Source: Caldifarciminota bacterium
Lineage (GTDB): Bacteria; Hydrothermota; Tepidihabitantia; Tepidihabitantales; DTDR01
Assembly: GCA_025060715.1 (NCBI GenBank)
Contig: JANXBG010000010.1
Span: 1-55,717 of the forward strand
Direction of reading: 5' to 3'
DNA: 55,717 nucleotides
Below, piece after piece: positions 1,323 to 19,689 of this stretch. A program made the position numbers and the translations under genes. Under the pieces are notes generated by a model that searched no databases, was not told the origin of the DNA, and saw only the letters and a list, made by a program, of their open reading frames with translations. The number at the start of each line of letters is the position of its first letter. The first letter of the stretch is position 1.

Positions 1323-1515
1323 TATTAAATATTATAAATAATTTTCTTTTAAAGTCAAAATAAAATGCGACATACCTTTGTCACACCCCAAATAATCCAT
1401 CAAACTTTGGTAATATTTATTAAGTTATTGAAATTATATGACTTAAATATATTTTTAAAAATTAAATTTGGCAAATTTTTTGCATATTTTATAATAAACA
1501 GCAAAGGAGGAGTTT

Positions 1516-3393
1516 TTGGGCATAAAGAGGCCTTCCAAATTATTTTTACAAAAACTTTTTAAGATTTTAGATAATTTTCCAGAGTTATTTTATATTTCTG
1601 ATCCCGACACTTATGAGATTATTTATATGAATAAAAAATTAAAAGAACTTATTAAAAAATATAATATTTTTTATGATAAAAAAAATAACCTCTGTTATAA
1701 GATATTTCAAAATCTCTCTTCTCCATGTCCCTTTTGTTCCAATAAGTATCTTTATGAAAATCCCGATAAGCCTTATATTTGGATTCATAAAAATTTAAGG
1801 AATAATCGTTATTATAAATGTATTGACCAATTTTTAAAATTAAAAAATGGTAAGTATTTGAGAGTAGAATTTGCCTTTGATATTACCAATGAAATAAATA
1901 AAAATAAAATAATAAAAGAGTATTATAAAAGATATTATGACCTTTTTGAAAATGTTCCGGCGCCTATTTATATAACAAATGTGGAAGGAAAATTTATAAG
2001 AGTAAATAAAGCAATGAGTAGTTTATTTGGTTATACCAAAGAAGAATTTAGAAATATTAATGCCTTAAATCTTTATTATAATCCAGAAGATAGAAAAAAG
2101 TTTCAAAAGGATATTGAAAAAAAAGGTTATGTAGTAGATTATGAGGTAAAACTAAAAAGTAAAGATGGTAAAATTATAAACTCTCTCTTATCAGCAAGTG
2201 TGATAAAGGACCTTTTTGGAAAAATTGTTGGCTACCAAGGAATAATTAAAAATATAACTTTGGAAAAAGAATATAAAGAATTTCTTAAAGAGACAATTAA
2301 AAGGAAAGAAGAAAAAATAAAAAAATTAGCAGAAGAGAAGGATAGAGAGAGTAAAAAATGTGCTAATCTTCTTATTTATCAAAGTACCTTTGTTCATGAT
2401 TTTAATAATATTTTAGGAACTTTATTAAATAATTATTATCTTATTAAAAATTACTTAAAAGATAATAAATTTTCCGAGATTTACGAAATTTTAAAAAAAG
2501 GAGAAGAATTAATTATTAAAAGCAAAACCTTTATTAATTCTTTATTAAAATTAAGAGAAGAAGGCATAAAAGTTAAAAAATATGTCCCCTTAGCTTCTCT
2601 TATTGAAAGGGTGATAAATTCTTTTGAAAAAAAGAACGAAATTGTCGCAAATATAATTATACCGAAGGATTTAACGGTTTATGGTTATGAAAAACAATTG
2701 GAAATCCTCTTTTTCAATCTGATTAAAAATTCCTGGGAAGCAAAAAGGGAAGAAAAGATTAGAATTGAAATAACAACTGAATTAATCAGCGAGAAAGATA
2801 AAAATTATGTAAAAATCTCTTTCACTGATAATGGTCAAGGGATTAAGAAAGAAGAGTTAGATAAAATCTTTCAACCCTTTTATTCAACAAAAAATCAAAC
2901 AGGTATTGGTTTAAAAATTGTTTCCGAAATTATTAAAAATCATAATGGAAAAATTGAAGTAGAAAGCGAAGTAGATAAATATACCACCTTTCATATTTAT
3001 TTACCGATTTTAAAAGAAACCCCTCTTCCTTTTAAGAAAAAAATTATTTTGGTTGGTGAGGGAGAATTAATAAAGACAGTGAAAGAAATTTTAACCCTCT
3101 TTGACTATGATGTTTTTTATGCCCAAAATTGGGAAGAGGCATTAAAGATTTATTATCAGTTTAAAGAAAAAAAAGAAGCCTTTTTAGGGTTCTTTTATGA
3201 TTCCGGGCGAGAGGCATTAGAAGAAGATATAAAAGAATTTGATAGAATTCTCAATCTAGAACCTGATATAAATATATTCTATTCTTCTTATTTTGTTGAG
3301 CCTAAAGAGTTAATCACCAATAATAATATAATCATTTTAAAGAAACCTTACACTACTGAAGAGTTGATAAGAACAATATCTTGTGTTTCTTAA
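1516..3393 (+). CDS. PAS-domain sensor histidine kinase with degenerate C-terminal receiver-like domain
   Basis: PAS regions, H-box FVHDFNNILGTL, N-box FFNLIKNSWEA, G-boxes DNGQGI and GIGLKIV; C-terminal IILVGEGELIKTVKEIL receiver-like. TTG start after AAAGGAGGAG. Confidence 0.85.
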   Translation: MGIKRPSKLFLQKLFKILDNFPELFYISDPDTYEIIYMNKKLKELIKKYNIFYDKKNNLCYKIFQNLSSPCPFCSNKYLYENPDKPYIWIHKNLRNNRYYKCIDQFLKLKNGKYLRVEFAFDITNEINKNKIIKEYYKRYYDLFENVPAPIYITNVEGKFIRVNKAMSSLFGYTKEEFRNINALNLYYNPEDRKKFQKDIEKKGYVVDYEVKLKSKDGKIINSLLSASVIKDLFGKIVGYQGIIKNITLEKEYKEFLKETIKRKEEKIKKLAEEKDRESKKCANLLIYQSTFVHDFNNILGTLLNNYYLIKNYLKDNKFSEIYEILKKGEELIIKSKTFINSLLKLREEGIKVKKYVPLASLIERVINSFEKKNEIVANIIIPKDLTVYGYEKQLEILFFNLIKNSWEAKREEKIRIEITTELISEKDKNYVKISFTDNGQGIKKEELDKIFQPFYSTKNQTGIGLKIVSEIIKNHNGKIEVESEVDKYTTFHIYLPILKETPLPFKKKIILVGEGELIKTVKEILTLFDYDVFYAQNWEEALKIYYQFKEKKEAFLGFFYDSGREALEEDIKEFDRILNLEPDINIFYSSYFVEPKELITNNNIIILKKPYTTEELIRTISCVS

Positions 3394-4685: not shown

Positions 4686-4965
4686 CTATACCATATCCTA
4701 TACTGCCCCCTATTTGATAGAAAATAAAATCCCCTTGTCTTATCAATGTGGTACTAAGAAAATATCTAAAAGAATCCCTTATCTATTTTTTAACAAAAGA
4801 ATATATAACTTCCCTAATACCTCCTTTTTCTTTTTTTGGTAATAATATTGGAGATATAAGACCTTGATAATGCCACTAAAAACAAAGGAATATTTTCTTA
4901 TCTTATTAGCCATTATTTCTTCTTACTATATATATATAACGAAGAAAGAGCCCCAAAGGTTAGCA
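4686..4965. repeat. Dispersed ~280 bp repeat, copy 1 (pseudogene-like)
   Basis: Nearly identical to 19343-19623 by direct comparison; only a handful of substitutions and small indels. Confidence 0.9.
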
Positions 4966-5030
4966 TTTTTTTAATATCTTTTTTAAACTCAAACAATTTG
5001 ACTTTCTTATTTTAATTATTATAATAAATT

Positions 5031-9431: not shown

Positions 9432-10610
9432 TTATAAACCAATATCAGCAGGAGCTCGCCCCAGTTTATGAAGAAGATCAATTATCTCTTTTATTTTTTT
9501 ATTTACATCCTCTCCTATTCCATCCCGATTAGGATAGATTTCATATAGAGAAGCATATTCTTTTGGTGTCAAATTAATCATTAAAGAATTGGCACCGGCA
9601 AGTAGGCCCTTTTTTAGCCCTTCCTTTTTATCTAAGGTTTGCATAGCAGTAGTAACTAAAATTTTACTATTGGGATAAAGAATTCTTGCTTGAGCAATAG
9701 TATCTAAAACTTTCTCCATCGGTGGTGGCGAAAAATCTTTTAGCGGTGTATCAGGATGGGGAATAAAAGGACCAAAAGAAAACATTTCAGCACCAAGTTC
9801 ATTAGTTAAAGTAAGGTTATTTAAAATATCTCCTTCCTCTTCACCCGGCAAACCAATCAAAAATCCAGTCATTATTAAATAACCTATATTTTTCAACTCT
9901 TTAATTAAATTAACCCTATCCTCTAATTTATGCCCTGGCCTCATTTTTTCATATATCTTCTCATTACTTGTCTCAAATCTCAAAAGAACACCCCTGGCAC
10001 CAAATTCATAAAGCTTTTCAAAAATTTCTATCTCCCTCTCACCGATACTTAATATCAAAAGACACGGACTCTCTTCCATTACCCTTCTTACAATATAAGA
10101 TAATTTATCAATATCATAATATAAGTCTTCTCCGGATTGAAATACTAAGGCTTTAAAATTTAATTTCTTTATTGCATAAAAAGCTAAATTAACTATTTCA
10201 TCTAATTCCATTCGGTATCTTTTTAATTTTTTATTATCCCTTCTTAAACCACAATAGAGACAGTTATTCCGACAATAATTAGAAAATTCAATTATTCCGT
10301 GAACACAACAGGAATTATCATGATATTCTTGACGAATTCTATTAGCAATCTTATATAAATCTTTAGAAGGATAAGTAACCCTTAAATCAATCTCTTTTAA
10401 TTTATGAAAAAATTCTTCCCAAACCTTTAATGTTTCAATTGCTTCTTCTTTAGGAATCTTTTGAATAACAAAACCTCCTTGAGCATAAACATAATCACCA
10501 ATTTTTAAATCATAAAAATCGTTTCTTACCTTTTTAATAATTCCAAAATATTCAATTTTGCAGATGTTGTTATCTATCTCAATAACTTTTCCTGGAATAG
10601 CATAACACAT
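9432..10610 (-). CDS. hydE: HypC-like domain fused to [FeFe]-hydrogenase maturase HydE (radical SAM)
   Basis: N-term MCYAIPGKVIEI...GDYVYAQGGFVIQKIPKEEAIETL (HypC/HupF pattern) followed by IIEFSNYCRNNCLYCGLRRDNKKLKRYRM (HydE radical SAM). Confidence 0.9.
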   Translation of the reverse strand: MCYAIPGKVIEIDNNICKIEYFGIIKKVRNDFYDLKIGDYVYAQGGFVIQKIPKEEAIETLKVWEEFFHKLKEIDLRVTYPSKDLYKIANRIRQEYHDNSCCVHGIIEFSNYCRNNCLYCGLRRDNKKLKRYRMELDEIVNLAFYAIKKLNFKALVFQSGEDLYYDIDKLSYIVRRVMEESPCLLILSIGEREIEIFEKLYEFGARGVLLRFETSNEKIYEKMRPGHKLEDRVNLIKELKNIGYLIMTGFLIGLPGEEEGDILNNLTLTNELGAEMFSFGPFIPHPDTPLKDFSPPPMEKVLDTIAQARILYPNSKILVTTAMQTLDKKEGLKKGLLAGANSLMINLTPKEYASLYEIYPNRDGIGEDVNKKIKEIIDLLHKLGRAPADIGL

Positions 10611-10612
10611 AT

Positions 10613-12004
10613 TTAAAAATACAAATCCCTTTCGCCTTTTTTTATTCTTTCTATTCTTTTTATTGTCTCTTTTCTTACATTTTCATTATCAATTTTATTT
10701 AAATAGTATTCTACTACCTCATATCCTTTTTCGTATATCTCTTTTTTACCATTATTTTTAGCAAAATTTTCTAAATATTCAACAAAGGTTAAAATTCCAT
10801 TAGGTCGACAGAATTTATGGATTTCACCCGGTTTAGCAAGATTCATAAAATTTTCTCCAGTTCTTCCTATCCGATAACAGGCAGTGCAAAAACTGGGAAT
10901 TAATTTATCTTCTAAAATATCACTGATAACCTCTTCTAAATTTCTTAAATCATATACTTCAAATTGAACCTCTTCTTTAAGAAATTTTTTATAACCTCCA
11001 GGTGAAGTTCTTGAGCCAGCCGAAGTTTGAGAAATTCCTAATTTAAAAGCGATCTTTCTTATTTCGGGTCTCTCTCGGGTTGATAAAATCATTCCAGTAT
11101 AAGGAACCGCTACTCTTAATATAGCAATTATTTTCAAAAAATCTTCATCAGAAACAGGATAAGCGGGTTGATAAGTTACTGTTGGCGCCTCTCTAAATCT
11201 TGGAACCGATATAGTGTGAGGACCAATTCCAAGATGTTTATCCATAAATTGAGAATGGGAAACCAAAGAGAGCACCTCAAATCGCCAATCATAAAGTCCA
11301 AAAAGAACTCCAATCCCTAAATCATCAATCCCGCCTTCAAAAGCCCGAATATGAGCAGTTATCTGCCTTTCATAATCACTTTTTGGTCCTTTATGTAATT
11401 TCTTATACGTCTCATAATGATAGGTTTCTTGAAATAACTGATAAGTACCAATTTTTACTTCTTTTAATTTTTTATAATCCTCTTTGGTCGTTGCGGAAAT
11501 ATTCACATTCACTCTTCTAATATTTCCTTTTTCAGTTTTTACCGAATAAATTGTCTCTATTGCTGAAACAATATAATCAATCGGATTATTTATTGGGTCT
11601 TCACCACATTCTAATAATACCCTTTTATGACCCATTTCGATAATCCTTATGGTCTCTTCTTTTATCTCTTCCAAACTTAATTTCCTTCTTTTTAAAGGAT
11701 TTCTAATATGGAAATTACAATATTCACAATCATTAACACAAAAATCTGAAATATATAAAGGAGCGAAAAATACCAATCTTTCACCATAAATCTCATCTTT
11801 TATCTTTCCGGCAATATTAAAGAGTTCACTAATCAGTTCTTTATCTTTAAGATTTGTTAAATAGCCTACCTCTTCTAAAGAAAGCCCCTTTTTCTCTTTT
11901 GCTTTATTAAAAATTAATTCTATAGTCTTTCTATCAGGATTCTTTGTCTTTTCTAAAATTTGTAAAATCTTCTCTTCATCACAAATTTCTTTAATAACCT
12001 TCAT
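10613..12004 (-). CDS. hydG: [FeFe]-hydrogenase maturase HydG
   Basis: Radical SAM CVNDCEYCNF plus C-terminal CTAC-x22-C (CTACYRIGRTGENFMNLAKPGEIHKFC). Confidence 0.93.
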   Translation of the reverse strand: MKVIKEICDEEKILQILEKTKNPDRKTIELIFNKAKEKKGLSLEEVGYLTNLKDKELISELFNIAGKIKDEIYGERLVFFAPLYISDFCVNDCEYCNFHIRNPLKRRKLSLEEIKEETIRIIEMGHKRVLLECGEDPINNPIDYIVSAIETIYSVKTEKGNIRRVNVNISATTKEDYKKLKEVKIGTYQLFQETYHYETYKKLHKGPKSDYERQITAHIRAFEGGIDDLGIGVLFGLYDWRFEVLSLVSHSQFMDKHLGIGPHTISVPRFREAPTVTYQPAYPVSDEDFLKIIAILRVAVPYTGMILSTRERPEIRKIAFKLGISQTSAGSRTSPGGYKKFLKEEVQFEVYDLRNLEEVISDILEDKLIPSFCTACYRIGRTGENFMNLAKPGEIHKFCRPNGILTFVEYLENFAKNNGKKEIYEKGYEVVEYYLNKIDNENVRKETIKRIERIKKGERDLYF

Positions 12005-12108
12005 TAATTAATTATAAAATCTTAATTTTTAAAATCAAGGTAATAAAAATGAATATTCTCCTCTTTTTAATTATTAAGATATAAGATTCAATTTGTTAAG
12101 TTTTTAAA

Positions 12109-14061
12109 CTATTTCAATATTATTAACCTTCCAGTGAAAATATTATTTTGGATAACAAAACGATAAAAGTAAATGCCCGTACCAATCTCAGATAAATTTA
12201 TTTCTAAATTATTCTTTCCTTTTTTACCAATATTGGAAAGTTCTTTTATTTTTCTACCTGTTCCATCATAAAGGAAGAAATTGAATCTCTCCTCTTTAGA
12301 AAGATTAAAGGTAAAAGAAATTTTATCTTTTTGGAGATTTTGTATTTTAAAAATAGGAATTATTTCTTTTAAAGAAAATTCTTGGACATTCGCCACTTTT
12401 TCATCCTTGACAATCATATCTTGGTCTTGAATTAAAGTAAGAGAAGTTGCGTTAGCACAGCTTAAATCAAAGAAATAATTTCCTGAACCACTATAAGAAG
12501 TAACATAAATCCGATAATTGCCAGTGGTTGTTGGACTATAACCAATATATTCTTGTCGAGTTGTTCCGGTAGAATAAGCTACTCGAGTTCCTGCTGGGTT
12601 ATAAAGATGTAAATCAAAATCGGGATATCCCGAACTCCAATTAGGTATTATTAAGGTTATTGCGATAGGGTAAGAAATAGAATTAACATTTACCTGCCAA
12701 ATATCGGTTCTTCCACTACCGCCGAGATATTCCGAAGCATAAATATGGGGTGGCACAATAGGACCGGTTCCACTGTAACCACCGGCAACTTTTATTGCCT
12801 CATAAGCTTGACATCTTCCAAAGCCATAATCAATATCTTTATTAGTTGGTCCCCAATCTTCGCAGGTGCTACTTAAAATATTCTTTATCTGAGTTGGTGT
12901 CAAATTGGGATTGGCATCTAACATCAAAGCTATCACTCCGGCAATAAAGGGGGTTGCCATACTTGTTCCACTGTAAGTAATATAACTATTTCTTGTTCCA
13001 CTTCTTGCTGCAGTGATATTCACACCGGGACCACATACATCAGGTTTTATTCGACCATCTGCAGTTGGACCACGGCTTGAGAAGTTAGCCAAATAAAAAC
13101 CTTTCTCGCCACAATCTGCCATCGCACCAACAGTTATCACTTTTTCAGCAGCGGCTGGGGAACCAATTGTATATCTTGCTGGGCCTGAATTTCCTGCGGC
13201 AACAACGGTAATAATTCCGTTATCCACAGCATTATTACAGGCCAAGGAAAGGGCATCTTGACCATTAGAACTACCAGAGATACCTAAACTAACTGAAAGA
13301 ATTTTTATATTATAAGTATTTTTATTTTGGACGACCCAATCAATACCAGCAATGATGGTTGATGTTGAACCGCTACCTAGGGAATTAAGAACTTTAACTC
13401 CTACTAAAGCCGCGCCATAAGCAACTCCCCGATAAGCAGCATTTGCTTGTCCTTCACCAGCAGCAATGGAAGCACAATGAGTTCCGTGGCCATTATCATC
13501 ATAAGGTGTTGGGCGGTTGTTAATGAAATCCTTCCAGCCAATTACTTTTCCACCATCTAAGTCATAATGGCCAATATCAATACCAGTATCAAGAATAGTA
13601 ATTACAATATCATTAGAAGAATAAGAATTCACATTACCATCTCTATCACCTTCAACCCCAAAGTCATTTCTTGCTTTTGTGACACCAAACCAAGAAGAAG
13701 CGGTTCCTAAAAAGGCATAGACTGGAGAATCGTATTCAATATGATGCACTACTTCTTCTTTTGCTAATTGTAAAATCTGCTCCTTTTTAAGAAGAGCAGC
13801 AAAACCAGGAATTATTTGATAACGATAGCGAATAGAAAAATCCCCAATCTTCGCTTTTAAATGGTCCACTAAAATATCCGATACCGCTTCCTTAAGTAAA
13901 ACAATTACCGGAATCTCCTTCTCTCTTTCTAAAAGATAATTTAGATTTTCAAAAAGTTTATCACCATTCACATCGTAAAGAAGATTTTTTTCTTGGGGGA
14001 TTTTAAAATTGCTGGCAAAAAAGAAGAGGGGTATAAAAAATAATAACAATATCTTTTTCAT
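12109..14061 (-). CDS. Secreted subtilisin-like S8 peptidase with PPC-like domain and C-terminal sorting-type domain
   Basis: Catalytic motifs ILDTGID, NGHGTHCASIAAG, SGTSMATPFIAGV; inhibitor I9-like propeptide; C-term FNFFLYDGTGRKIKEL...GTGIYFYRFVIQNNIFTGRLIILK. Confidence 0.92.
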   Translation of the reverse strand: MKKILLLFFIPLFFFASNFKIPQEKNLLYDVNGDKLFENLNYLLEREKEIPVIVLLKEAVSDILVDHLKAKIGDFSIRYRYQIIPGFAALLKKEQILQLAKEEVVHHIEYDSPVYAFLGTASSWFGVTKARNDFGVEGDRDGNVNSYSSNDIVITILDTGIDIGHYDLDGGKVIGWKDFINNRPTPYDDNGHGTHCASIAAGEGQANAAYRGVAYGAALVGVKVLNSLGSGSTSTIIAGIDWVVQNKNTYNIKILSVSLGISGSSNGQDALSLACNNAVDNGIITVVAAGNSGPARYTIGSPAAAEKVITVGAMADCGEKGFYLANFSSRGPTADGRIKPDVCGPGVNITAARSGTRNSYITYSGTSMATPFIAGVIALMLDANPNLTPTQIKNILSSTCEDWGPTNKDIDYGFGRCQAYEAIKVAGGYSGTGPIVPPHIYASEYLGGSGRTDIWQVNVNSISYPIAITLIIPNWSSGYPDFDLHLYNPAGTRVAYSTGTTRQEYIGYSPTTTGNYRIYVTSYSGSGNYFFDLSCANATSLTLIQDQDMIVKDEKVANVQEFSLKEIIPIFKIQNLQKDKISFTFNLSKEERFNFFLYDGTGRKIKELSNIGKKGKNNLEINLSEIGTGIYFYRFVIQNNIFTGRLIILK

Positions 14062-14111
14062 CTTCTCCTCCTTTTTAATAATTTAATCAATTATAAATTA
14101 TTAATTTTTTT

Positions 14112-15431
14112 GTGTCAATAAAAATAATACTTGAAAAAAATATTAAAATTGGCAAAATTAATAAAGTAGAATTAAAGGTTAATTTGTTTAAAAGGAATTT
14201 TCTTTTAATTTTACTTCTTATTTTAATTCGTTTCCTTTTTTTTATCCCTTTATTATCTAATGAAAATGCAATTCTTGAAGCGGTAAGCGATGGAAAAGAG
14301 TATTATGAACTTGCCAAAAATCTTGCTTTATCTTTTAATTACGAAAGAGAAGGAAAATTTGATACAAAAAGACCTCCCCTTTTTCCATTTTTGTTATCTT
14401 TATTTTATTTTATTTATCCCAAACCTTATATTGGTTTTATTTTCTACTTAATTTTATCAATAATTTTTTTGTTACTAATAAAGAAATATTGCCCAAAAGA
14501 AATCTTTTACCCTTTTGCCTTCTTATTTATCTTATCACCACAAATAAATTTTTATTCCCTTTTTCCGATTACCGACTTACTTTTTGGTATCTTTCTTTTT
14601 CTAACCTATCTCTTTTTAAAAAATAATAAAACTTCTCTTTCTTTAATCTTTTTCTCTTCTCTACCTTACATCAAACCTGTTGGTCTTCTTTTACCGCCCT
14701 TCTTAGCAGCCTATTATTTTGTTAAAAAAAGCTTTAAAAAAGCATTACTCTTTATTCTTATCCCCTATCTTTCTATTCTTCCTTGGTCTTTTTTAACTTA
14801 TAAAAAGATAAACCTTTTTACCTTTTCTACTTTACCTTATATTAATTTCTTTTCTTATTATCTACCAGTTGCCAAATCGTTAAAAGAGAAAATAAGTTAT
14901 GAAAGAGCAAAAGAATTAATGAATGAAGATTTAGAAAAGAATTTAAAAGAAAATTATACTGAAAAAGATTACTGGCAGACAATTAAAGAGATATCATTGA
15001 AAGAGTTTAAAAAGGCAACTTTTCATTTTTTTATCTCCCATTTTATTTTTTCTTTTAATACCTTAATTTCGCCAATCTCTTTTAAACCATTATTAATATA
15101 TTTAAACAAAAAAATAGAAAGACCAATCCAACAAGAAATCTTTGCTTCTTTTTTAAAAGGAAGAGTGATTGAAAGTATAAATATATTTTTAAAAGAAAGA
15201 TTATTTAAAATTGGCCTCTTTGGTAATTTTCTTCTTGTCTATTCTTTTATCTTTCTTCTTTTTATTCTAATCCAGTTTGTTAAAATAATTAGAAGAGAGA
15301 AACCCTTATTAGAACTTTTAATTATTTTTCCTTTAATCTTCTCAACCGGTGTAGTTGGCGAAGCACGATATCGGTTGTTGTTTGAAGTTATTATCTATTT
15401 CTTGATTGTAAAATCTTTTAAAAAAGATTAA
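14112..15431 (+). CDS. Polytopic membrane protein, GT39/PMT-like glycosyltransferase
   Basis: Multiple TM segments, DGKEYYELAKNLALSFNY... and RPPLFPFLLSLFY typical of the family. Confidence 0.6.
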   Translation: MSIKIILEKNIKIGKINKVELKVNLFKRNFLLILLLILIRFLFFIPLLSNENAILEAVSDGKEYYELAKNLALSFNYEREGKFDTKRPPLFPFLLSLFYFIYPKPYIGFIFYLILSIIFLLLIKKYCPKEIFYPFAFLFILSPQINFYSLFPITDLLFGIFLFLTYLFLKNNKTSLSLIFFSSLPYIKPVGLLLPPFLAAYYFVKKSFKKALLFILIPYLSILPWSFLTYKKINLFTFSTLPYINFFSYYLPVAKSLKEKISYERAKELMNEDLEKNLKENYTEKDYWQTIKEISLKEFKKATFHFFISHFIFSFNTLISPISFKPLLIYLNKKIERPIQQEIFASFLKGRVIESINIFLKERLFKIGLFGNFLLVYSFIFLLFILIQFVKIIRREKPLLELLIIFPLIFSTGVVGEARYRLLFEVIIYFLIVKSFKKD

Positions 15432-15475
15432 GTAATCGCTTTTACCGTTGATTTTGTTATTTTTCTAAGACATAT

Positions 15476-15823
15476 TCAAATATTATCTTTTTTTGGCACC
15501 TCCTTCTCACTTGACCCTACGCTACGAACCTTATAAATGATATTTGTCCAATCCAATTCAGGAAGTCTCTTTTCACTATTATAATTGAAACCATTTAAAC
15601 CAAAAGAAACTATTAAATTATCACAATAAGGACATCTAATTGAAATCTCGCAATAAAAAATCTTTTATCTGTGGTAAACTAACTGAGATTTGATTAAGTG
15701 TCAAAAATCTTTTTATTTTTAGATAAGCTTTGCCTAAACACTGAAAGTTTTAACATTCTATTGGTTTTTTTCTAAATTCTTTACTAAACAAGTAATAGAG
15801 GTTTTATTTTCAAAAATCGTCAT
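15476..15823 (-). pseudogene. Decayed gene encoding a zinc-ribbon protein
   Basis: SD AAGGAGG then MTIFENKTSITCLVKNLEKNQ*; downstream frames hold QCLGKAYLKIKRFLTLNQISVSLPQIKD and IFYCEISIRCPYCDNLIVSFGLNGFNYNSEKRLPELDWTNIIYKV..., separated by stops/frameshifts. Confidence 0.5.
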
Positions 15824-15889
15824 TTAATTTTTCCTCCTTGTCTAATCTAAAAGAGATTTATATTATAAAAGAAAGACTTTTAAAAAGTT

Positions 15890-16214
15890 CCCAAATCTTC
15901 GTTATTACAGAACCTTTGGATACAGAGTATAACGCCTTCAAGAGAAAGTTTTTTAATGGGCGCAGGCTCAGGATGAGGGATTTTATGGGGATCATTCTTT
16001 ACTACATAAAACTTCTTTTCTAAAATATAATAATTTCCCTCTTTTATCCATTTTTCATAACTTATTCTTAAAGGATATTCCTTTTTAATAACAATACTAT
16101 CTAAAATTCTTAAACGATTTTTAATTTCCGTATATGTGTATTTAACACTTTAATTTCTTCCTCTCGTCTAATAAATAGACTTTTTTCAAAATAGTTAATT
16201 AATAACTTTTCCAT
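15890..16214 (-). pseudogene. Frameshifted hypothetical protein gene
   Basis: ATG at 16214: MEKLLINYFEKSLFIRREEEIKVLNT..., then protein-like continuation in another frame: YTEIKNRLRILDSIVIKKEYPLRISYEKWIKEGNYYILEKKFYVVKNDPHKIPHPEPAPIKKLSLEGVILCIQRFCNNEDLGTF*. Confidence 0.55.
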
Positions 16215-16459
16215 TTTGCCAAATTAAAAAACTTACAATTTATCCGAGTCATTTGAAGAAAGCTCCTAAAATAACATTAAATAAAACTTTTAATATTTAA
16301 ATAAAAACTTTTGAGCTAACTTTTCTAAAACTGCTTAAAAATAAATTGTTTAAATTTACTAATAACAAGAAATACCTTAAAAAACAGCAAAATCTCTTCT
16401 CGTCTTAGGAAGGACATTAAAAAGACAATTTTTAAGATTAAAAATTCCCATATTATATG

Positions 16460-16488
16460 GGTATAGCACATTTTTGCCAAAATGTCAA
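16460..16488 (-). promoter_or_regulatory. Sigma70-type promoter (TTGACA-N17-TATACC)
   Basis: Reverse strand TTGACATTTTGGCAAAAATGTGCTATACC. Confidence 0.6.
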
Positions 16489-16594
16489 GCGAAATTTTTA
16501 ATATAAGTTTAAAATTAAACGACGAATAATCACTAAAATTTTACCTTTCTTATAACTCAACAATTTTCAATCGCCTTTTATATCAGTAATTCAT

Positions 16595-17899
16595 TTATTT
16601 TTTAACTTTTGGTAAATTATTTTTTAAAAAATTTATTTTTTTCTCAAAAGCGGTGTTAATACTAATTTCAATTTCGTTTTTGTCATTTTTTCTTAACATA
16701 ATTATATTATGCTCAAAACCCCTATGGGCAAAAAAATTTCTCTTATCAATATTATCTTTCTCTTTATCATTGAGGAGCTTGGCATAAGATTGATATTCTG
16801 AAGAAGGGTTTAATTTCTTTATATACTCAATCTCTACATCAATACTATTAGTTTCTATTGGAAATTTCTCTTTTGACCAAATTTTATTTTTTAATTTTTC
16901 AATTTCTTTTAAATTAATATCTTTCTTCTTAGTAAACCCATTAATATTTAATATCCAGGAAGCCAAAAAGCTTTTTATTAAATTTTCAAAATTAATATTA
17001 AATTTAAATTTTCTTTTAATATCCAATTTATTATTTTGATTTTTATCTATTGAAATCTTCTCTTCAAATATCTCTGATAGCTTGTTAATTTTCTCTTCCA
17101 AGTTATCAATTTGAGGTAAATAATATATCACAAAAACAGGAAGACAGTGCATAAAAGCAGAAAGAAAGAAGTATAAACTACCAGGAAATTTGTTATCCTT
17201 ACTACTTAATTCTCTTTTTTCATACCCATTAAGATGATTAACAAAAACTTCAAAAGGCTCAAGGATTCCTTTTTCATAAAAATAACCAATTAATTTAGGT
17301 AACACCTTCGTTCTTTCTATTATATTTACGTTTAACTCTGATGGTCTAGCAGTTCTGAGATAAGTATCAGAATTCAAAACAATTAAATTTATCTCAAAAG
17401 AATAGGCTAAAATTTGAAGAATTTCTCTCAAAGCCCGATAGGTCAAAACAGGTAAAAAATTTATTCCATGACTTATATCTAAAAATACTTCAATTTCTTT
17501 AGAAGATGGAGATTCTAACTCTTTCTTAAAGAAAAAGGCCAACTCTTTAAAAATCGCATAATAATAATCCATTGCATTACCAATAAATCTTGTTTTATTA
17601 AATTCTCCCACACCGTAAGAGATAATTATTTTATTAGAAGAAACTCCCAATTCTTGATCACAAAAATTTTTAATTATTTCTTTTGCCTTATTTTTTAAAT
17701 CTTTATAGGAGCTAATCAATTCATCTTTAATTTCCTCATCAGCAAGAGTATCAATGGATATGATCACTGTCTTATCTATTTTTTCTTTTTCTATTATCAA
17801 AGTTAAGGGATCCTTAGTTTCCTTCTGTGTATCTTTATAGTTATATTTTACTTTATCCCAATTTCGAGGATTTCCCCAAGTAGAAATTAAAATCTTCAT
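16595..17899 (-). CDS. Csx1-like CARF-HEPN CRISPR-associated ribonuclease
   Basis: N-term MKILISTWGNPRNW, CARF motif FLDISHGINFLPVLTYRALREIL, C-terminal HEPN R-x4-H (RNFFAH). Confidence 0.82.
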   Translation of the reverse strand: MKILISTWGNPRNWDKVKYNYKDTQKETKDPLTLIIEKEKIDKTVIISIDTLADEEIKDELISSYKDLKNKAKEIIKNFCDQELGVSSNKIIISYGVGEFNKTRFIGNAMDYYYAIFKELAFFFKKELESPSSKEIEVFLDISHGINFLPVLTYRALREILQILAYSFEINLIVLNSDTYLRTARPSELNVNIIERTKVLPKLIGYFYEKGILEPFEVFVNHLNGYEKRELSSKDNKFPGSLYFFLSAFMHCLPVFVIYYLPQIDNLEEKINKLSEIFEEKISIDKNQNNKLDIKRKFKFNINFENLIKSFLASWILNINGFTKKKDINLKEIEKLKNKIWSKEKFPIETNSIDVEIEYIKKLNPSSEYQSYAKLLNDKEKDNIDKRNFFAHRGFEHNIIMLRKNDKNEIEISINTAFEKKINFLKNNLPKVKK

Positions 17900-17995
17900 A
17901 AAAATATTTTTTTAACTCAAATCAAAACTTCTAAAATCTAAACATCTCTTAATCTTTAAAAATAATTTTTCAAATTTTTTTAAATTTTTCCACAT

Positions 17996-18826
17996 CTAAA
18001 TTTTTTTTAATTCTTCTAAGATAAATACTCCCTTTTCGGTTATTTTTATCCGATATTCTTTACCTGTTTCTTCATCCCTTTCCACTTCAACTAATTGATA
18101 GAGTTTTAATCTTTCTATCTCTTGAGGAAACTTTTGAAGAATCCGCTCATACTCCCCACCGCTACGCGGTTTTCTATCTTTAAGTTGTTCTAATAACTCT
18201 ATTTCTTTTCCTTTTGGTAAATAAAAAAGGGGCGGTAAAAATATTGTTCGGTTGAATTCTTCATGCATATAATAGATTTCACAATTCAAAAGAAAGCCGG
18301 CAAGGGCAGTAACCATCACATAAGCTTTAAAACCTCCCGTAGGATTGAAATATACTTTATAACCCTCCTCCTTCTTTCTTTTTGCAATACTAATAAGCCT
18401 ATCAAGAAGCAAAGAGATATCCTTCTGAAACTCATCTTTAGCATAATTCTCATCAAATATCTCAGCTTCATAAAAATAACCACTAACTTCAGAAGGAGGA
18501 TAAATTTTATAATTTTCTTCTTCTAAAAATTTTTCAATAACTTTTCGACAAAGTTGATTAGAAGCGGTGTTAGTTCCAAAAAGATAGACTGAAATATTAG
18601 AAGGTTCTTTATTTTCTACTACTCTTAAAAAAGTATTTAACTCTGCTGAATTCTCCTTTGGATTCTCTTTAAGAAAAGAGTATAATTTATTCACCTCTTT
18701 GGAATTATTTAAAATTTCTTTCCAATAACTCTCATCTCTTATTTTTATATCTTCCGGCAGTACTCCTCTTCTCTGAGCATTTTGGATTAAGGAAACTCCA
18801 CTACTTATTATATGAAATTCTTTCAT
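17996..18826 (-). CDS. APE2256-like CARF-domain protein with C-terminal winged-HTH
   Basis: IISSGVSLIQN, VYLFGTNTASNQL, VYFNPTGGFKAYVMVTALAGFLLNCEIYYMHEEFN (CARF core), C-term LKLYQLVEVERDEETGKEYRIKITEKGVFILEEL (wHTH). Confidence 0.8.
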   Translation of the reverse strand: MKEFHIISSGVSLIQNAQRRGVLPEDIKIRDESYWKEILNNSKEVNKLYSFLKENPKENSAELNTFLRVVENKEPSNISVYLFGTNTASNQLCRKVIEKFLEEENYKIYPPSEVSGYFYEAEIFDENYAKDEFQKDISLLLDRLISIAKRKKEEGYKVYFNPTGGFKAYVMVTALAGFLLNCEIYYMHEEFNRTIFLPPLFYLPKGKEIELLEQLKDRKPRSGGEYERILQKFPQEIERLKLYQLVEVERDEETGKEYRIKITEKGVFILEELKKI

Positions 18827-18857
18827 TTAACCTCCTTTTTACTTTCAACTTTTCCTT

Positions 18858-18886
18858 ATTTTAATAAATTATAAATATTCTGTCAA
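18858..18886 (-). promoter_or_regulatory. Promoter of the CARF cassette (TTGACA-N17-TAAAAT)
   Basis: Reverse strand TTGACAGAATATTTATAATTTATTAAAAT upstream of AAGGAGG-ATG at 18826. Confidence 0.65.
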
Positions 18887-18954: not shown

Positions 18955-19303
18955 GGGTGGGGTGAAGCGGTCGCGGTAGGCTTTAAGCCTACTGAGGAAA
19001 CTCCGGACTCATGCCAACCCGGATACTTCGGGCAACCGAAGGCTATCTTGTCGTGAGACAAGATAGACGGAAAGTGTCACAGAAACGTAGACCGCCAACG
19101 GTCCCACTTCGTGTGGGATGCGGGCAAGGGTGAAACAGTGCGGTAAGAGCGCACTACCTTGTCTCGTAAGGGACAAGGTGGACAAACCCTATCCGGAGCA
19201 AGGTCAAATAGGGGCGAGAGGTTGGTTGGCCCTCGCTTGAGCCCCGGGTAGACCGCGTTAGATAAATGACCGCATAAACAGAATCCGGGTTATCACCCCA
19301 CCC
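18955..19303 (+). ncRNA. rnpB: RNase P RNA (bacterial type A-like)
   Basis: GAGGAAACTCCGG (CR-I), AAGGGTGAAACAGTGCGGTAAGAGCGCAC (CR-III), CCGGAGCAAGGTCAAATAGG (CR-IV), ACAGAATCCGGGTTATC (CR-V); closing helix gggtggggtg/caccccaccc. Confidence 0.96.
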
Positions 19304-19342
19304 CTCCCTTAATTTTTAATTCAAATAATACTCTTTAAGATA

Positions 19343-19623
19343 CTATACCATATCCTATACTGCCCCCTATTTGATAGAAAATAAAATCCCCTTGTCTTAT
19401 CAATGTGGTACTAAGAAAATATCTAAAAGAATCCCTTATCTATTTTTTAACAAAAGAATATATAACTTCCCTAATACCTCCTTTTTCTTTTTTTGGTAAT
19501 AATATTGGAGATGTAAGACCTTGATAATGCCACTAAAAGCAAAGGAGCATTTTCTTATTATCTTATTAGCCATTATTTCTTCTTACTATATATATAACGA
19601 AGAAAGAGCCCCAAAGGTTAGCA
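19343..19623. repeat. Dispersed ~280 bp repeat, copy 2
   Basis: Near-identical direct repeat of 4686-4965. Confidence 0.9.
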
Positions 19624-19689
19624 CCTTTTTTTTAAAGTTTTTCTTTTAACTTTTCTTTCAAGGTTTTTTAATACCTCTACTGATACAGA

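Follow-up and report, generated by a model that had tools for sequence, protein, structure and literature searches.

Two adjacent genes on the minus strand of the window (the whole 55.7-kb stretch of DNA that was analysed), csx1 and an APE2256-family gene, very probably belong to the host's type III-A CRISPR system as a dispersed accessory cassette, that is, an effector activated by cyclic tetra-adenylate (cA4) together with its off-switch. An initial annotation, made from the window alone, had recognized the two same-strand genes and proposed an effector plus degrader module answering either a remote type III locus or a cyclic nucleotide unrelated to CRISPR. The first of these proposals gained support from a Cas10 with GGDD and HD motifs and from two csm loci found elsewhere in the genome. 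The idea of a stand-alone, Cas10-free module had to be abandoned, given the genomic Cas10 and the type III operons of relatives that carry the pair or single members of it. The features discussed below are the following.

15521–15655, minus strand: decayed gene fragment, 51% identity over 45 aa to an intact gene of the congener G002 (L090:4805-5194)
16595–17899, minus strand: csx1, distal gene, 434 aa, predicted CARF-HEPN ribonuclease (Csx1/Csm6, TIGR01897)
17996–18826, minus strand: proximal gene, 276 aa, putative crn1-like ring nuclease (Cas_APE2256, CARF7 group)
18858–18886, minus strand: candidate sigma-70 type promoter TTGACA-N17-TAAAAT, weak (11/12 matches), upstream of both genes
18955–19307, plus strand: rnpB (RNase P RNA, bacterial class A), divergent neighbour outside the module
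Contig C7, 31508–33895: cas10/csm1, 795 aa, HD motif and GGDD at residue 611 (TIGR02578, 639 bits)

The products of the two genes

Both reading frames are intact, csx1 being located downstream of the APE2256-family gene. The amino acid sequence of Csx1 includes a Csx1-type CARF domain at the N-terminus (Pfam Csx1_CARF, PF22230, 5.8e-36) and a Csx1_HEPN domain (PF09455, 8.9e-11), and it passes the TIGR01897 model with 230.7 bits (cut-off, 110). The HEPN R-x4-H motif is intact as RNFFAH at residues 387-392, as the initial annotation had read it. The nearest solved structure by sequence is that of Thermococcus onnurineus Csm6 (5.8e-29). A fold search with the Csx1 model also returned Csm6 as the best match (3e-24) despite the weak C-terminal part of the model, which has a pLDDT of 66 overall and is of low confidence and unreliable in the HEPN region. 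Csx1 shares its whole-length CARF-HEPN architecture with T. onnurineus Csm6 (6o6s) and Pyrococcus furiosus Csx1 (4eog), to which it is about 26% identical when aligned by fold. Its CARF motif is DISHGIN, in which H144 pairs with H132 of the T. onnurineus protein; W14 corresponds to W14, and the HEPN R-x4-H is also retained. By this likeness, the csx1 product is predicted to be an RNase activated by cyclic oligoadenylate, the ligand presumably being cA4.

The proximal protein was assigned to the Cas_APE2256 family (Pfam, 4.8e-26, above the cut-off) and exceeded the TIGR02619 cut-off as well. Comparison of its gene with the congener orthologue showed 69, 41 and 131 differences at codon positions 1, 2 and 3 over 274 codons, a pattern that indicates that the gene is coding. 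The AlphaFold model (pLDDT 91) has a winged-helix-like domain at the C-terminus, in agreement with the CARF-wHTH architecture originally described, and the N-terminal CARF domain carries G10-V-S12 and G165-F-K167. The nearest solved structure by sequence is the Sulfolobus islandicus ring nuclease Sis0811 (2e-17), and the fold search gave Sis0811 (1.2e-15) and Sso1393 (5.5e-14), both about 25-28% identical to the window protein when aligned by fold. Sis0811, of the Crn1 type, is nearly the same size (275 versus 276 aa) and has the same order of CARF and winged helix. One of the matched Sis0811 entries is an S12G/K169G mutant, and these two residues correspond to S12 and K167 in the window protein. 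Across 22 homologues, G10 and K167 were invariant and S12 nearly so, the S12/K167 pair being retained across phyla.

The winged helix raises the question of whether this protein is a transcription regulator of csx1 or cas genes that responds to cyclic oligoadenylate, like the CARF-wHTH protein Csa3, and is no ring nuclease. Csa3, which also combines a CARF domain and a winged helix, was among the fold matches, but at 5.3e-6 its score is far behind those of Sis0811 and Sso1393, which are themselves CARF-wHTH proteins and ring nucleases (PMC10018336). The sequence of motif I is compatible with a regulator. The window protein has GVS, and it does not have the strict GTS stressed for Sso2081 (PMC10018336), so cleavage of cA4 is not assured; among the homologues motif I varies (GVS, GNS, GTS or GIS). 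The protein also scored far below the cut-off of the NCBI ring-nuclease equivalog NF040951 (61.9 versus 600 bits). Besides motif I, it differs from Sis0811 and Sso1393 in belonging to a bacterial family present in both Cmr and Csm operons. Weighing the fold matches and the conserved S12/K167 pair against GVS and the winged helix, we consider a regulator rather unlikely, and the APE2256-family protein is probably a Crn1-like enzyme that would destroy the signal of Csx1. Cami1, a CARF-RelE protein (8phb/8phj) with a related CARF7-type sensor domain, was also a weaker fold match than Sis0811 and Sso1393. Identity with it was rejected, as it is 406 aa long and the 276-aa window protein ends in a winged helix without a RelE-sized extension.

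Type III genes in the host genome and in relatives

The host assembly (G000; 1.6 Mb in 86 contigs, about 92% complete) was searched for cas genes. No cas gene other than the pair was seen in the 55.7-kb window, where the reported absence of cas10, other cas genes and an array holds; it does not extend to the genome, which has cas10 and other cas genes on contigs C7, C50 and C53. A Cas10 palm domain was detected at C7:33152 (1.6e-32), within csm1, which is followed by csm2 and csm3 (both identified by family models), a csm4-like gene and the contig end; the csm4-like call is based on gene order and on resemblance to csm4-like genes at other loci. Contig C50 has csm2, csm3, csm4, csm5 and, judging by its position, a C-terminal fragment of Cas10. 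The Csm3 proteins of C7 and C50 are only 36% identical, which indicates that these are two separate csm loci. On C53, cas1 was identified by family search, and apparent cas2, cas4 and cas8-like genes were recognized by reading. Apart from the pair, no Csx1_CARF or APE2256 gene turned up in the assembly.

The possibility that C7 entered the assembly by contamination or a binning error was also considered and was ruled out. The chromosomal genes immediately upstream of its csm locus have matches of 79-82% in both congeners, as do the window's own genes, and C7 therefore belongs to the host genome; the csm genes themselves have no comparable match in the congeners. As proposed initially, the whole genome was screened for a cas10 with GGDD and for CRISPR arrays. 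The former is the gene on C7. Searches with two patterns, a generic repeat-spacing pattern and the congener repeat (allowing 3 mismatches), detected no array in this draft, where contig ends truncate both csm loci.

Among 120 relatives, APE2256 genes were found in 8 genomes and Csx1_CARF genes in 4, the host genome being counted in both. The orthologue in the congener G002 is 68% identical and occupies the arrangement CRISPR array (repeat GTTTTTAGCCTACCTATAAGGGATTGAAAC)–APE2256–cmr3–cmr4–cmr1–cmr5-like gene. A scan of genome contigs produced 19 further APE2256 homologues, mostly from thermophilic bacteria, for each of which 8 kb was fetched. Thirteen of them lie within or adjoining Cmr or Csm genes (L059-L064, L067-L069, L071 and L073-L075). 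In L073 and L075 the order is APE2256, csx1 and then csm1, which reproduces the pair's own order, and in L061 and L062 both genes are inside one Cmr operon. Cas6 and Cas1-like genes are near the homologue in L065, csx1 and Cas6 are nearby in L077, and the homologue in L066 is at a contig end. The 8 kb around those in L070 and L076 contained none of the cas genes that were looked for.

Accessory genes of type III systems are expected to share a genome with a Cas10 that has a cyclase motif, and the GGDD of the Csm1 encoded on C7 provides it. Location in or beside a type III operon, the other mark of such genes, was observed in the relatives and not in the window. These results largely correspond to what the initial annotation had named as grounds for giving up its proposal, a type III operon elsewhere to which the two are ordinary accessory genes, except that the partners are common and not obligatory. 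An orphan module whose signal is a cyclic nucleotide produced by an enzyme outside CRISPR would fit the lack of cas genes adjoining the pair in the window, the few homologues, in L070 and L076, that are far from all of the cas genes looked for, and a Csx1-like protein in the genome G109, where Cas10 was not found. Against these stand the Cas10 with GGDD in the host itself and the close homologues in operons with cas10 or cmr/csm genes, and such an orphan is extremely improbable.

Other CARF proteins were observed in the course of these searches. In L072, the gene directly after APE2256 (1476-3194) encodes a fusion of three parts: a Cas_NE0113 CARF domain, a sigma-54 activator AAA domain and a Fis-type HTH. 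Some Cmr operons have a second, divergent APE2256-like protein besides the 275-aa one (L063:444-1286, L067:6787-7998 and L074:6778-8004). The Csx1-like CARF-HEPN protein of G109, a distant phylum member, has the motif RNFLAH (L034:8991-10346), and a gap of 14 bases separates its gene from an apparent sugar-kinase-like gene downstream; this genome is 96% complete, and no Cas10 palm matches are listed for it. Viral carriage was discarded, as neither protein has a homologue in viral contigs in a search that covers close relatives.

The site of the pair

The TTGACA-N17-TAAAAT box proposed as the common promoter is present upstream of both genes. Its role as a promoter is only plausible, because the number of promoter-like matches in this AT-rich stretch (14) equals the expectation from shuffled sequence (13.9). 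The rnpB gene is the neighbour on one side, as initially described, and its own neighbours differ in both congeners (G001 and G002). On the other side, the adjoining region 15432-16594, referred to before as a pseudogene graveyard, does lack an intact gene and contains the decayed relic listed above. Its four fragments have no Pfam match and no cas relic was found among them; the sole homology detected in this region is to a non-cas gene of a variable locus in G002.

That locus was located through the left neighbours of the pair (window 9904-15403), which match G002 contig C13. The corresponding position there is occupied by a 12-kb variable locus (L090:2969-15555) consisting of two pairs of AAA ATPase and DUF2201 metallopeptidase/VWA genes, plus small unknown genes. 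About 16 kb from this position is another array of repeat GTTTTTAGCCTACCTATAAGGGATTGAAAC, besides the one next to the APE2256 orthologue; contig C13 begins with a CRISPR array. In G001, apparent transporter genes come after the matching gene. The comparisons with G001 and G002, the relic and the differing rnpB neighbours indicate that the site is rearranged and lineage-variable within the genus. The decayed surroundings, and a corresponding G002 site that is variable and has an array some 16 kb away, could suggest that the pair is decaying and non-functional, left over from a type III locus once present here. This is very unlikely, since neither reading frame is disrupted, every catalytic residue tested is retained, and the relic resembles a non-cas gene and no cas gene.

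An intergenic repeat of about 310 nt, which has no Rfam match, was also observed. Its two window copies (19343-19651 and 4686-4989) are 94.5% identical; C7 has a diverged copy (L002:10965-11301), located between parA and csm1, and G002 has many partial matches.

Proposed action in trans and its significance

As an accessory cassette of the type III-A system, the pair would act as follows. After binding of foreign RNA by a Csm complex, its Cas10 would make cA4, which would bind the CARF domains of a Csx1 dimer and turn on the HEPN RNase. Active Csx1 would then degrade RNA, slowing both the virus and the cell. The Crn1-like protein, if expressed along with Csx1, would take up this cA4 as well, in its own CARF dimer, and cleave it by means of S12 and K167, resetting the response. 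The winged helix of Sis0811 was reported to be auto-inhibitory (PMC10018336), and by analogy that of the window protein is probably an inhibitory or regulatory domain. Being encoded away from the csm operons, the pair would depend on a diffusible signal to serve the remote Csm complexes in trans. In a further elaboration, the pair, freed from its operon, would be a trans-acting hub shared by the two Csm systems, or would even sense a signal that does not come from Cas10, and the winged helix would add transcriptional control; this seems highly improbable.

Pairs of effector and ring nuclease of this sort are already known. A 2025 survey associated Csx1 with every ring nuclease class analysed and proposed that ring nucleases act in trans for another locus (PMC12409355). 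The case described here indicates that the effector of a type III system, along with its off-switch, can sit far from cas operons, so a 'Cas10-free' reading made from one window can mislead. The single modest point of interest is the size of the family. The same survey counted ring nucleases up to 250 aa (PMC12409355), a limit outside which the 276-aa protein falls; since the bacterial CARF-wHTH family, at about 270-280 aa, exceeds it, the Crn1-like enzymes of bacteria may be under-counted in that survey.
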